64,000 nt of DNA from Cohaesibacter intestini (GTDB lineage: Bacteria; Pseudomonadota; Alphaproteobacteria; Rhizobiales; Cohaesibacteraceae). Location: assembly GCF_003324485.1 (NCBI RefSeq), contig NZ_QODK01000005.1:1-64000 (forward strand). The letters are read 5' to 3'. The stretch's first letter is position 1, and every line of letters starts with the position of its first letter. Shown in pieces: positions 12,938 to 20,440 of this stretch. Both the position numbers and the translations under genes were made by a program. The notes below the pieces were generated by a model. It saw only the letters and a list, made by a program, of their open reading frames with translations. It was not told the origin of the DNA and made no database searches.

Positions 12938-13816
12938 ATGAAAATAAAACAATTGAGAACAGATTACACGCATGTATTTCTCCACGAACTAGACTATCGA
13001 TCGCAACGCATGAGCAACCTGCCACAACTCAGAAAGAGAACCGTCGACGGTAAGCTGTATGAGCGCAGAGCCGCGACGGAAGTCGCCATTCTCAAATGTC
13101 TCGAACTAACATTTGAGGAGTTTTGCGATCGTGCCGAATTTAGCGTCAGAAAAAGTCCTGACTATATCCCTTCGGAGGTACTGGTATACTTTATCAGGCA
13201 GACGAAGTCTCACAATCAGGATGCTCAATTCGGTAAGCTCTATAAAATTTTGCAAAAACGCATAAAGAGCGTTTGTCCTCGATCAGAAGTCCTTAGTGGA
13301 TCGAAAGAGGGCGCGGTTGCACATTTATTGGACTTACAAGACTACGTGCTTGATGACTTCGCTGAACGCGTTATGTGCGACCGACAAACATATGAAGAGA
13401 GCCTTGACGCCTACGAAGTTGCATTCGACCGTATGATAGCTCGTCGGAAAGATGAGGCCCTGCGAAAAATGTACCGCCGGGACAAGCCGACCATGCCGCT
13501 CGAATACGACGCAGATGGAGACATTCCTGCTGATATCGAGAAAGGTCTTGAAGAGCTGAATCCAGATAATTCGTGCTTTGAAGACGAAATCACTTACCGG
13601 TTTCAGCTACAGCGCGCGATTGACTCCCTTCCAGTTGATGAAAGGCGGGTTATCACCATGATCTTTGCAGGAATACCAAGCGAAAGTAACGACCCTGAGG
13701 TTCAAACAATTTCGACGATCCTTCAATGCAAACCACAAACAGTCCGAAACCGCCGCAATAGAGCAGTCAAGAAACTACAGGCGATATTGGGAACGAAGGT
13801 GAAAGATGCCAACTGA
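12938..13816 (+). CDS. Sigma-factor-like DNA-binding protein
   Basis: A 292-residue, mostly helical, charged protein. The C-terminal part (about 225-285) looks like sigma region 4: RAIDSLPVDERRVITMIFAG followed by a helix-turn-helix TISTILQCKPQTVRNRRNRA. There is no clear region 2 core-binding signature, so it may be a sigma-like regulator rather than a true sigma factor. The start at 12938 is chosen because the upstream in-frame codons (to 12821) look non-coding; the ribosome site is weak. It is first in a chain of overlapping genes (next gene overlaps by 11 bases) leading to the ImmA-helicase fusion, so it may control that unit. Confidence 0.65.
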   Translation: MKIKQLRTDYTHVFLHELDYRSQRMSNLPQLRKRTVDGKLYERRAATEVAILKCLELTFEEFCDRAEFSVRKSPDYIPSEVLVYFIRQTKSHNQDAQFGKLYKILQKRIKSVCPRSEVLSGSKEGAVAHLLDLQDYVLDDFAERVMCDRQTYEESLDAYEVAFDRMIARRKDEALRKMYRRDKPTMPLEYDADGDIPADIEKGLEELNPDNSCFEDEITYRFQLQRAIDSLPVDERRVITMIFAGIPSESNDPEVQTISTILQCKPQTVRNRRNRAVKKLQAILGTKVKDAN

Positions 13817-14372
13817 GTTGAACCGCGATGCGATCTTGGACGACTTCGCCATGGAGGACCCGATCGCACCAGAAACACTGAGAAGCTACATTGAAAAGTA
13901 TCCGTCTTTCGCTGTCGAGTTGACGGACCTTTACCACGAGTTGCTTCTGATGGATCTCTCATCTGCTGTGGATGGTATACAGCTAGAGACAAAGTTGGTG
14001 GTCGAGCCAGCACAGCAAGATGTTGCGTTTGTTGCAAACGCTCTCTCCGGCAGTAACCTACGGAGTTTGGCCGAGAAACTGGGCCTACCCCGAGACTACA
14101 TTGCTGGGTTCAGGGATAGAAAATTTCGACTTGGAACAATCCCGGGTACATTGCTCGTAAATTTGGCCAAGTCAGCCAGCATCTCAGTTCATCAACTGAT
14201 CACCTATTTCCAGGCCCCCAATAGGATTGGGGCCCAAATGGCTTATAAGGCAGATGGAAAACCACAGGGCTACTCTGAGATTGAATACGATGAGTTCGTT
14301 CAAGGACTTGGCTTGAATGTTAAAGAGCTGGAAGCTCTCAAAAGATTGTCAGTGTCAGATGGATCAGATTGA
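13806..14372 (+). CDS. Small partner protein ahead of the ImmA-helicase fusion
   Basis: A 188-residue protein of no recognised family. The middle (about 80-140) reads like a helix-turn-helix (GSNLRSLAEKLGLPRDYIAG and VNLAKSASISVHQLITYF). It overlaps both neighbours (11 bases upstream, 14 bases downstream). ImmA/IrrE peptidases are commonly encoded next to a DNA-binding repressor or antitoxin that they cleave; this protein occupies that position, so it is a candidate substrate. That role is inferred. Confidence 0.6.
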   Translation: MPTELNRDAILDDFAMEDPIAPETLRSYIEKYPSFAVELTDLYHELLLMDLSSAVDGIQLETKLVVEPAQQDVAFVANALSGSNLRSLAEKLGLPRDYIAGFRDRKFRLGTIPGTLLVNLAKSASISVHQLITYFQAPNRIGAQMAYKADGKPQGYSEIEYDEFVQGLGLNVKELEALKRLSVSDGSD

Positions 14373-17300
14373 GCTCGCTCGGCAGAAAGCCACCCAACTG
14401 CATGATGACCTAGTCGCAAAGGGCGGCGATCCAACCAGTCCGCTAAACTTCATACTGCAGGAGGCCAAGAGACGTGGCATCGAAGTTCGCGCATATTCAA
14501 AGGGCCACACTCAACTCGAGGGTGGACGGGCGCTTTTTGATGCCGATGCACACGCCATCCGCCACGAGGAAACCGGCAGCGACTTTCTCAATGCGTTTTT
14601 GATCGCCCATGAAATCGGTCATGATGAGTTCGGTAATGGTGGCGAAGCCATTCCGGCTGTGGAAGTTGATCCGGCGCGCTCAGCCGACCCGGCAGCTACC
14701 GGAGCGGAGCGTCTATTGGATTACAGCCATAAGGGCCGCCAAGAAGTTCTAATGGACCTCTTCGCTCGAGAATTTCTGTTTCCAAGATCCATGGCGCGGA
14801 AATTGTACCTTGATGAGGCGCTTTCTGCAGAACAGATATCGGAACGGCTTGGCGCTCCCTACGACATGGTCGCCGTTCAACTTTTTGATGCGCTGTTATT
14901 GCCGCAGATCGCGGCAACACCTCCTAAAATGTCGAAAACCAAATCGCTCAATCCGGAACAGAAAGAAGCTGCAACCCACGATGGCGATGCGTTGCTATTA
15001 AGAGCTGGTCCTGGGACGGGCAAAACCCAAACCCTCATTGGTCGGCTTGAACATCTCAGAGATAAGGGCGTTGATCCTGCTTCGATTTTGGTGCTGACCT
15101 TCTCAAACAAGGCAGCGAGTGAGCTCTCCGATCGGGCTTTGGACTTGTGGCCCGAGGCGGGGGGTGCCATTTGGATTGGGACTTTCCACTCCTTCGGACT
15201 CGACATCGTCCGCCGTTTTTACGACCGCCTGGACATTTCAAGTGAACCAAACCCACTTGATCCGACGGCGGCGATTGCACTGCTGGAAAACGAGTTTGTT
15301 CGACTGGATTTGCAACACTTCAAAGAACTGTATGATCCGACGGAACAGCTGAAGGATATCTTGGCTGCCATTTCGCGAGCCAAAGACGAAGTGGTCAACG
15401 CGCCGCGCTACAAGGAATTTGCAGACACAATGCGTGCGGCAGCAGTCACTGACGAGGACATTGAAACGGCTGAGCGTTGCCAGGAAATTGCACAAGTCTA
15501 CGAGGTCTATGAATGGCTAAAGAAGAACGGCAATTTTGTTGACTTTGGAGATCTTGTTGCGCTGCCAACAGCCCTGGTTGAAACCGATCAAGAAGCACGC
15601 ACCCTACTTCAGGATCGCTACACCCATATCTTGGTCGATGAATATCAAGACGTAAACCGGGCAAGTGTGCGTTTGCTTCGCGCCCTCAAACCAGATGGCA
15701 AAGGATTGTGGGTGGTCGGCGATGCAAAACAATCGATCTATCGATTCCGTGGTGCTTCCTCGTTCAATATGCAGAGGTTCAAAGAAGAGGACTTCCCCAA
15801 CGGTTCTATCATGAGCCTTGTAACCAACTACCGATCTTTCCAGGAAATTTGTGACGGGTTTGTTGAATTTGCCAATAGCAACATGTTGGCGGCCGAAGCG
15901 AATGTTCAAGCTATCGCCCATCGAGGATCGTCGCAAACAAATCCGGCTTTTGTGGCTGTCGAAGGAAAAGGCAATGAAGTTGCCGAGATAGCTACTCGGA
16001 TCGGAGCTGCGGTAGAATCAGGCATACCGCTCAAAGAGCAGGCTGTGTTGTGTAAGGCTAATGACCGGTTGGCAGATGTGGCCTCAGGGTTGGAAACACT
16101 TGGTGTACCTGTGTTGTATCTTGGACCACTGTTTGATCGTCCCGAGATTAAGGAAGCTCTTTCATTCCTGTCGCTGCTAACCGATCCGCGCGCCATGGGT
16201 CTTGCTTGTGTGGCCACAATCCCGGAGTTCGGGATTCCAATCAATGATCTATCGATTTGTGCGCAACAATTGGCCACCGGCGAAAAGTTACGCCCACTTG
16301 ATTGGAAAGCACGCCTTTCCAACACCACGAATTTGACCTCTGATGGGCAACGCGGACTACAATCGGTCTTTAGTGCACTTAAAGGACTTAGTGAGACATC
16401 AACTCCCTGGCGCGCATTTGCAACGATTTATCTAGACAATACGGATCTGGTGCGTGGACTGTGCAACCAGGCTCAAGACGGAATGCAATTGCCTGCTATT
16501 GCCGTATGGCAGTTCCAGAACTTCCTTCGCTCGGTCCGGATAGACGGCGAAGGATACCCTGTTACTCTACTTCTTGATCACATCCGCAGACTGGTCATCC
16601 TTTCGGACGAGAGGGATTTGCGTGATTTGCCGTCAGCTGCCCAGTCCCTGAATGCTGTTCGCTTGATGACCATTCATGGAAGCAAGGGTCTTGAGTTTAA
16701 AGTGGTGCATCTTCCCAGCCTGACAAGTCGATCAATGCCTTCCGCGTATCGGCAAACCACACCCGCACCACCTGACGGAATGATTGATGGACCGATCCAT
16801 AGCGGAAAAGGCGCGGTGCGCGCTGGTCACGATGAGGAACAGGAGTGTCTTTTCTTTGTGGCTTTATCCCGGGCGGAAGATATGTTGCTTTTGTACTCCT
16901 ACAACAAGCGATCGAAGTTTATCGATCGCATAGCCAGCAAGTTCGATTTTCCAGCACAGTTAGCCACGACGCAGGGAAGCACAACCACTGAGAAAACAGT
17001 TGGAGTTGCCTTTGAAACGCCTTTGACGATCACGCCGTCTCAGCTTGCGCTCTATGAGAAGTGCCCGCGACGCTTCCTTTTTGCCCATGTGCTGAAGCTA
17101 GGCGGCAAGCGTACAGAATCTGCATTCATGAAGATGCACGGAGCTGTTCAAAACACCATTGATGAATTGGTGAATCTAGAAAGTTCTGTGGGTTCGGAGG
17201 CGGAGCTTGAAGCGCTGTACAAGCAACATTGGGAAGCGAGAGGGCCGGCTGACCATGGCTATGCGTCCGACTATGAACGCGCAGGGCGCCAGCTCCTCGC

Positions 17301-20070: not shown

Positions 20071-20071
20071 C

Positions 20072-20440
20072 ATGAAAAAGCTACTGGCAAACTTGCTTCG
20101 GCAGCTTGGTATGCTGCGTTTTGATTTTCTGGTGACCAAGCAGGATTCCTTTCCGCAGACGCCTGAATCGGACGAGGAAGTCATTTTGGTGGAAAGCGGC
20201 GCAATTCAGAAATGGGCCTGCTTCTCTTGTCCCGGTGGCTGTGGTGAGAGAATTTCCCTGTCGCTCAATCCTGATCGACGACCACGATGGCGCATTGAGA
20301 CAGATTTTTGGCAAAGACCGTCTCTCCATCCGTCTGTGCACCAGCAAAACGAATGTGGATGCCATTTCTGGGTCAAAAAAGGTCAGGTTTACTGGTGCAA
20401 AGATGGACAGCCAGAAACACACATCGGGAAAGCGAAATGA
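20072..20440 (+). CDS. DUF6527-like zinc-binding protein of the ubiquitin-like operon
   Basis: A 122-residue protein starting one base after the E1 gene stops. It has a probable zinc site: CFSCPGGCGE (about residues 50-60), then ECGCHFWV and VYWC near the end, the layout of the DUF6527 family found at the end of prokaryotic multi-ubiquitin/E2/E1 operons. The function is unknown; a role as substrate adaptor or ligase-like factor has not been shown and is a guess. The region ISLSLNPDRRPRW and the downstream SLHPSV are typical of the family. Confidence 0.8.
   Translation: MKKLLANLLRQLGMLRFDFLVTKQDSFPQTPESDEEVILVESGAIQKWACFSCPGGCGERISLSLNPDRRPRWRIETDFWQRPSLHPSVHQQNECGCHFWVKKGQVYWCKDGQPETHIGKAK

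Follow-up and report, generated by a model that had tools for sequence, protein, structure and literature searches.

A candidate sigma-driven switch for a ubiquitin-like conjugation operon in Cohaesibacter intestini

The six-gene block

We analyzed a stretch of 64,000 nucleotides from Cohaesibacter intestini (contig NZ_QODK01000005.1, positions 1 to 64,000), hereafter the window. Open reading frame and Pfam analysis of the window identified a block of six rightward genes at 12938-20440 (+), which is carried on a 17.6-kb integrative element (10932-28554). The first three genes form a putative controller triad and the last three a predicted ubiquitin-like (Ubl) conjugation operon:

12938..13816, + strand: gene 1, a sigma factor resembling the extracytoplasmic function (ECF) type (Pfam Sigma70_r4_2, 1.5e-07)
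13806..14372, + strand: gene 2, a small helical protein of 188 aa resembling helix-turn-helix (HTH) proteins, putative inhibitor or repressor (weak signals)
14362..17745, + strand: gene 3, an ImmA (Peptidase_M78)-UvrD-PDDEXK_1 fusion (Pfam; start assigned by homology)
17834..18685, + strand: gene 4, a Ubl-Ubl-E2 fusion, BubA-BubB-like (Multi_ubiq in two stretches, Prok-E2_E; start assigned by homology)
18682..20070, + strand: gene 5, a JAB-E1 fusion, BubCD-like (Pfam Prok-JAB and ThiF)
20072..20440, + strand: gene 6, a putative zinc-binding DUF6527 protein (Pfam, 4.7e-25)

Neighboring genes abut or overlap, and the sole gap is one of 88 bases, from 17745 to 17834. An earlier note, made from the letters of this DNA alone, had described the same parts, gene order, overlaps, single gap and mobile setting, all of which were confirmed by Pfam and the annotation of the window. 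It had also regarded the block as one transcript-like unit. Since the 88-base gap contains a promoter-like element, the block probably consists of two transcription units under one regulator instead.

Gene 1 displayed both folds expected of an ECF sigma factor, sigma-4 from a region 4 match above the Pfam cut-off and sigma-2 from model matches, although its match to the NCBIfam family sigma70-ECF was below the cut-off. The AlphaFold2 model (predicted local distance difference test score, pLDDT, 85) had ECF sigma factors as its top matches in the PDB (best E 3.2e-3). Whole-chain matches included sigmaE, AlgU and SigK, with low global TM-scores, and the C-terminal part superposed on region 4 of sigmaE with a root-mean-square deviation of 2.0. 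The sigma-like protein noticed earlier is thus present, but the slight role then given to it did not stand; it looks like the key player. For gene 2, no Pfam family scored above the cut-off in the window. One homologue had a weak match to an Xre-like HTH domain, and the model (pLDDT 79) gave weak structural matches to proteins of the DdrO/Xre type (best E 1.0). We consider gene 2 a candidate cognate anti-sigma factor.

Gene 3 retains the HEIGH, GPGTGKT (Walker A) and DEYQD motifs, and its C-terminal PD-(D/E)XK-type domain contains four conserved cysteine columns. At what we take to be the position of the D-x-K residues of AddB-type nucleases, all 54 full-length homologues that were aligned carry R-x-x-x-T-G (sequences of 1000 aa or less were excluded from this check and from the tree below). 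The domain, which the earlier note had counted as a nuclease, is therefore probably not an active one. Because the D-x-K residues are replaced while the four cysteines persist, we expect it to bind rather than cut DNA. PADLOC models of GajB matched gene 3, and no match to GajA was obtained among the eight proteins scanned. A Gabija-like effector was rejected as an identity for the triad, since only gene 3 resembles GajB, a GajA OLD nuclease was not found and the nuclease site appears dead.

The conjugation half belongs, as the earlier note had stated, to a known multi-ubiquitin class. Gene 4 matched Multi_ubiq at 7.7e-29 in two stretches, which corresponds to the tandem Ubl arrangement of Bub or type 6e operons. 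Its PDB matches were multi-ubiquitin proteins, one of them labelled Ubl-BilA, and BubB, with which the E2 part has QRWSRH in common. The E2-like domain lacks a canonical catalytic cysteine, as in Bub and type 6e operons: no cysteine was common to 20 representatives of subtype A, one of the module classes distinguished below, and none was present in the part of the L078 protein that was read. In gene 5 the JAB domain is fused to E1, BubCD of Citrobacter was a PDB match (E 3.3e-23), and the JAMM-type motif is HTHPKGRARFSKQD. All 20 subtype-A representatives read have TTEG between the second Ubl domain and E2 (L006 was excluded from the TTEG and JAMM counts). Synechocystis has E2 as a gene of its own, and there the annotated Ubl protein terminates exactly at TTEG, which suggests that TTEG is the site of the JAB cut. 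The type 6e class was described as comprising a tandem Ubl protein, an E2-like protein, a JAB-E1 fusion and a third, zinc-finger-like protein (Iyer et al. 2006, PMC1779556, in the text available to us). This third protein probably corresponds to the DUF6527 family. Thus, judged by domain content, genes 4-6 are a Bub-type operon of the type 6e class, with conjugation itself a prediction. The BilA-D gene set was not found, as gene 4 had no PADLOC match and gene 5 had weak matches to E1-E2 and BilC.

Recurrence of the pairing across genomes

A genome scan with the ImmA region retrieved 205 relatives, with the query and the hidden Markov model (HMM) seeds drawn from seven linked loci; the counts of genome loci given here refer to the best 80 of the 205. 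The sigma and HTH genes were present in 80/80 of these loci and UvrD in 79 (L026 reaches a contig end). Of the 76 triad loci with enough downstream sequence, 74 carry a conjugation module, which is of subtype A in 24, of subtype B in 49 and of a third kind in one (L035). The remaining six loci end with the contig (L011, L026, L040, L070) or have a shortened gene 3 (L032, L037). According to the record titles, the 80 loci derive from alpha-, beta- and gammaproteobacteria, Planctomycetota, Verrucomicrobiota, Acidobacteriota and Myxococcota, and the triad block was also found on a cyanobacterial plasmid. More distant triads occur on plasmids, where 88 records matched, 60 were listed and seven were opened. 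All seven carry a module, in L136 with a partial BilA only. Bil genes adjoin the triads of L130, L131, L134 and L135, and L133 has a subtype-B operon. Four kinds of module, Bil among them, are thus found under related triads.

The view from the other side was examined in a sample of 385 genomes of the class, including the genome of the window. Gene 1 had seven matches in this sample, three of them strong (the window's own included) and each of these three with the operon downstream; the other four were weak and partial. Multi_ubiq was found in 12 of the genomes (11 above the cut-off), and nine of these 12 loci lack the triad. A stand-alone ImmA protein adjoins eight of the nine, the exception being L123. 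The gene-order search that the earlier note had proposed therefore lends strong support to its claim that the two halves are one unit. Its own proviso, that halves usually found apart would be mere neighbors, failed from the triad side (74/76 linked, and 3/3 of the strong sigma matches) and held in part from the Ubl side.

In a quick tree of gene 3 (61 rows), the labels A and B each require at least three changes on well supported branches, and the Planctomycetota loci with the third-kind module and with a subtype-B module are sisters. Modules have therefore been exchanged while the triad was kept.

Several loci depart from the common arrangement. In subtype B, both members scanned with Pfam have a DUF6791-ThiF protein, and L073 and L079 extend past the contig end. 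L055 and L065 (13394-13873) and L089 (4912-5334) have, by eye, a single rather than a tandem Ubl-like region, which follows a coiled-coil-like stretch and ends in FNVT.TIRS or similar. L073 is a contig of an archaeal metagenome-assembled genome (MAG) and may be a binning error. The third-kind module of L035 (7400-9661, a Planctomyces MAG) was read from the translation and from weak HMM and Pfam matches. Downstream of the triad come genes for a Ubl-containing protein, a JAB-like protein encoded separately (JAMM motif by eye) and ThiF, then SbcD/SbcC-like genes, and the gap carries the promoter-like motif described below. In the Robbsia plasmid L132, a Ubl trio is divergent from the triad, and the shared intergenic region (L132:7650-7830) contains the palindrome TTTAGAGTGTTTACTCTAAA. 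L056-L061 and L066, from Bradyrhizobium, Sphingomonas and Xanthobacter records, form one group at 92% gene 3 identity, which suggests recent transfer between families. In L068 (a Sideroxydans MAG), Ubl-, E2-, ThiF- and DUF6527-like HMM matches at 3721-8194 lie directly upstream of the triad and its subtype-B operon. In L006 (Pseudomonas koreensis plasmid p2), about 9 kb with IS66-type genes (7151-15965) separate gene 3 from the end of the Ubl-E2 gene, and part of the Ubl gene lies at 13553-13918. A gene for a CoiA-family protein directly adjoins the block on two plasmids (L002:11690-12391, L003:2094-2954), and genes of the AbiEii/AbiGii toxin family and DUF6088 lie directly upstream of the triad on two (L002:2467-4096, L004:4717-6559).

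A phage-borne module was rejected. The viral_contigs scan gave no relatives among 24 stretches, and of 115 records in the phage collection that match gene 3 none covers 80% of it; the 15 matches listed span residues 134-900, mainly the UvrD part.

The motif pair, the leader and the carrying element

The triad and the conjugation half are each associated with a copy of the same two-box sequence, and the second copy is followed by a predicted hairpin:

13594..13621, + strand: P1, TTACCG-N17-CGATT, which lies within gene 1 and precedes genes 2-3
17747..17774, + strand: P2, TTACCG-N17-CGATT, which lies within the 88-base gap and precedes genes 4-6
17775..17826, + strand: leader hairpin whose 3' arm includes the Shine-Dalgarno sequence of gene 4 (minimum free energy -25.1 kcal/mol, z -4.75)

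We searched for the motif in 87 loci, comprising the 80 genome loci, six plasmid loci and the window. A copy inside gene 1 was present in 80 of the 87 and a gap match in 79, with a spacing of 17 in 78 of these and of 16 in one. The eight loci without a gap match are six incomplete ones and the one-base variants L013 and L024. Across 1.715 Mb of loci, a spacing of 17 gave 161 matches, and every other spacing from 10 to 25 gave between 0 and 5. The 161 matches were located in the gap (78), inside gene 1 (80), just upstream of gene 1 (one, in L074) and elsewhere (two). The 4.79-Mb genome of the window contains two exact copies, both at the block, as compared to one for the reversed control. When up to two mismatches were allowed, this genome had 25 sites and the reversed control 31; besides the two exact sites at the locus, there were four with a single mismatch. 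A sigma regulon extending beyond the locus was therefore rejected.

The codons within P1 were compared in 56 representatives (L062 and L073 were excluded). The isoleucine codon is ATT in 53/56, as compared to 33% in the same genes and to 15-48% at six other conserved isoleucine columns in gene 3. The alanine codon is GCG in 54/56, and the two exceptions encode another residue but retain CG. Thus, judging from codon choice, P1 is constrained beyond the needs of the protein sequence.

In divergent triads the two copies change together. TTTCCG-N17-CGATT occurs twice in L131 and twice in L074, both copies in L130 have a spacing of 18, both copies in L135 have CGACTT in place of CGATT, and L134 displays by eye a different pair that is common to both sites. 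In L132, gene 1 is unrelated to the sigma family, gene 2 is a homologue (E 1.2e-28) and the motif is absent. It is also absent from all nine triad-free Ubl loci and from L008 and L009. These joint changes, and the absence of the motif beside an unrelated gene 1, suggest a sigma factor that evolves together with its two promoters, and it is highly likely that gene 1 recognizes P1 and P2. The earlier note had held that separate transcription would mark the halves as independent. Separate promoters are indeed likely, but since they have one motif in common they link the halves rather than set them apart. Because the pairing and the two matching promoter-like sequences recur in distant bacteria, it is very probable that the halves operate as a single system and are not chance neighbors.

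The leader hairpin starts directly after the -10 box of P2. In a symmetric arm-swap permutation with 52 representatives (L006 and L071 were excluded), chosen since an alignment-based search gave no pairs, arms of the same leader fitted better than exchanged ones, and none of 2000 permutations reached the observed mean. A core stem was present in 42 of the 52; only this count was used, as the stem-extension score is biased toward real pairing by choosing the best stem on a leader's own sequence. Removal of the first six bases raised the predicted accessibility of the Shine-Dalgarno sequence from 0.20 to 0.59, and the gain exceeded 0.1 in 41 of the 52. If transcription starts about 7 bases past the -10 box, as is usual, transcripts from P2 would lose the 5' arm. 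We tentatively suggest, with slightly less than even confidence, that the leader gates translation of gene 4 by the origin of the RNA. Rfam gave no match at the gathering score in the window, and a known RNA family was rejected as an identity for the leader.

The element that carries the block is delimited by direct repeats:

10932..10986, strand not assigned: left end repeat, 55 bases, 96% identical to 28500-28554, resembling the 3' end of a tRNA
28500..28554, strand not assigned: right end repeat, 55 bases
27398..28462, + strand: tyrosine integrase adjoining the right repeat (Phage_integrase, 1.2e-09)

ARAGORN found no whole tRNA in the window. MobC/NikA-like and ParA-like proteins are encoded on the element, and so is a relaxase-like one whose match fell short of the Pfam cut-off. 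A 27-base A+T-rich repeat occurs four times (20880-21196) shortly upstream of the ParA-like gene, possibly as iterons or partition sites. Between the left repeat and gene 1, a protein at 11617-12438 (-) contains an RNAIHHH stretch that by eye resembles the HEPN motif; it had no Pfam match. A second integrase (9550-10773) just beyond the left repeat suggests a neighboring element, and a transposase of the IS110 family is located upstream at 7640-8698.

A proposed switch, its alternatives and known systems

The sequence evidence consists of the conserved linkage, the paired motifs, the matching leader arms and the domain content. With these in hand, we consider it likely that the block is one functional unit, in which a Bub operon is placed under a dedicated controller triad that acts as a sigma-driven switch. 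The sigma factor of gene 1 would fire P1 (genes 2-3) and P2 (genes 4-6), and gene 2 would hold the switch off by binding either the sigma factor or DNA. Sensing would fall to gene 3, whose UvrD motor and inactive nuclease-like domain would engage abnormal or phage DNA, and the engaged protein would activate the fused ImmA domain to cut gene 2, in the manner of PprI and DdrO or CapP and CapH. That ImmA cuts gene 2 on a DNA cue is a step to which we give slight preference. The freed sigma factor would raise the output of the sensor and turn on the conjugation genes. JAB would then cut after TTEG, and Ubl would be conjugated to targets by E1 together with the E2-like domain; JAB could also release it from them. 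In read-through RNA the leader hairpin would hide the ribosome site of gene 4, whereas RNA started at P2, having no 5' arm, would be translated. On balance we lean towards an antiphage role for the block.

Several observations weigh against this proposal. The gene 1 model had no PDB match at E 0.001 or better, its best sigma match having E 3.2e-3 with a low global TM-score, and with a best DdrO match of E 1.0 gene 2 is weakly supported as an XRE-like substrate. The motif copy in gene 1 also encodes YR..L..AI, so that the protein explains part of its conservation. The exact copy is absent from gene 1 in 7/87 loci, L024 (which recurs as L129) has neither exact copy, and L136 has by eye the gap copy only. 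The core stem of the leader is absent in 10/52 representatives, and RNAalifold on the MAFFT alignment of the leaders found no consensus pairs. Moreover, phage protection by Bub operons has not been shown, according to the text of PMC13373217 available to us.

The motifs could instead be operators of gene 2, acting like CapH or DdrO, with gene 1 as an accessory and cleavage by ImmA derepressing two units that have ordinary promoters. Pairs of HTH and ImmA proteins control neighboring operons in published cases, as far as the text available to us goes, and the ImmA proteins beside eight of the nine triad-free Ubl loci fit such a scheme. The motif is not an inverted repeat, however, but has the two boxes and 17-base spacing of a sigma-70-family promoter, and in L132 it is missing although gene 2 is conserved and only gene 1 is unrelated. 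We therefore regard operators as improbable. An effector role for the triad, with the helicase destroying or blocking phage DNA and the conjugation genes acting alongside it to tag a target, appears unlikely, though a little less so. UvrD-type helicases are known in defence systems and gene 3 matches GajB, yet the D-x-K residues are missing from all 54 homologues, none of the eight proteins scanned matched GajA, and regulation is what a sigma factor that has a promoter pair to itself points to.

In the same unlikely range we place a unit whose role is not defence but service to the mobile element, by way of maintenance, control of transfer or addiction. The element that bears the block is indeed mobilizable and encodes ParA-like and MobC/NikA-like proteins, and the block also occurs on many plasmids. 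Related triads also adjoin Bil genes, however, and Bil reportedly interferes with phage assembly, as the title of a 2024 study by Hor et al. has it, which we count against a service role. Addiction or protection had been the speculation of Iyer et al. (2006), in the text available to us. That the halves are merely neighboring defence systems is very hard to maintain: triad-free Ubl operons exist (9/12 in the class sample), but 74/76 triad loci have the module, both halves carry the same motif and spacing is constant across phyla. The linkage and the common motif largely refute simple neighborhood.

If the proposed sigma-driven switch is correct, a helicase-coupled controller based on a sigma factor joins CapW, CapH+CapP and CapK+CapS as regulators of ubiquitin-like operons. 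The circuit is compact and testable, with two sites, one sigma factor and one peptidase. The promoter sequence would serve as a signature for finding such systems and as a simple reporter for the signal that activates Bub or Bil, and P1 would exemplify dual coding, with a promoter-like sequence retained inside a coding sequence across phyla. We see about even chances that the triad represents a new class of immune controller, in which a helicase-peptidase travelling on DNA frees a sigma factor dedicated to one operon, with an in-gene promoter and a leader gate, and which mobile elements add as a plug-in to several ubiquitin-like systems, of Bub kinds as well as Bil.

The conjugation half and control by ImmA and HTH proteins are already known. 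Genes 4-6 resemble Bub and type 6e operons in the tandem Ubl, E2-like, JAB-E1 and zinc-finger-like proteins and in the PDB matches to Citrobacter BubCD and BubB, and differ in following a sigma/HTH/ImmA-UvrD triad with a common promoter-like element. The word "helicase" is absent from Iyer et al. (2006) and from PMC13373217. No description of the sigma/HTH/ImmA-UvrD controller was found in our searches of the open-licence PMC literature; the Bub papers of Gong (2025) and Ye (2026) might contain one. Bil genes (BilABCD) lie directly downstream of the divergent triads L131, L135, L134 and L130, whereas the conjugation genes of the window are Bub-like.

Sigma factors of the ECF type have their own promoters, and in phage T4 read-through RNA conceals the ribosome site of some genes. 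The block resembles these cases in the sigma fold, the two-box sites and the hidden Shine-Dalgarno sequence. It differs from the ECF cases in that no membrane anti-sigma factor was seen and one promoter copy lies inside the coding sequence of the sigma gene.

The closest parallels are the Cap controllers. In the available text of PMC13373217, 219 of the 544 Bub operons come with CapW or CapH+CapP and 59 with CapK+CapS, and all three are control genes beside Bub, Bil and operons of the cyclic-oligonucleotide-based antiphage signaling system (CBASS). Cleavage of DdrO by PprI, and of CapH by CapP, is stimulated by single-stranded DNA, according to the available text of PMC10904395. CapP thus belongs with the ImmA-like peptidases and cleaves an HTH protein once single-stranded DNA is bound, and the same applies to PprI (IrrE), which acts on the HTH repressor DdrO in Deinococcus; helicase fusion, sigma factor and ubiquitin-like genes are not part of the account of PprI-DdrO given there. 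A separate HTH repressor with a stand-alone ImmA protein, as in CapH+CapP, is not what the block contains, since its ImmA is fused to UvrD and the HTH signal of gene 2 is weak. Unlike the Cap controllers, the peptidase here is fused to UvrD and a pseudo-nuclease and encoded in the same direction as the operon, and the set includes a sigma factor whose promoter-like sites form a matching pair. By this analogy, the triad looks like a larger member of the ImmA/HTH logic, in which a motor is joined to the sensor and a sigma factor relays the output.

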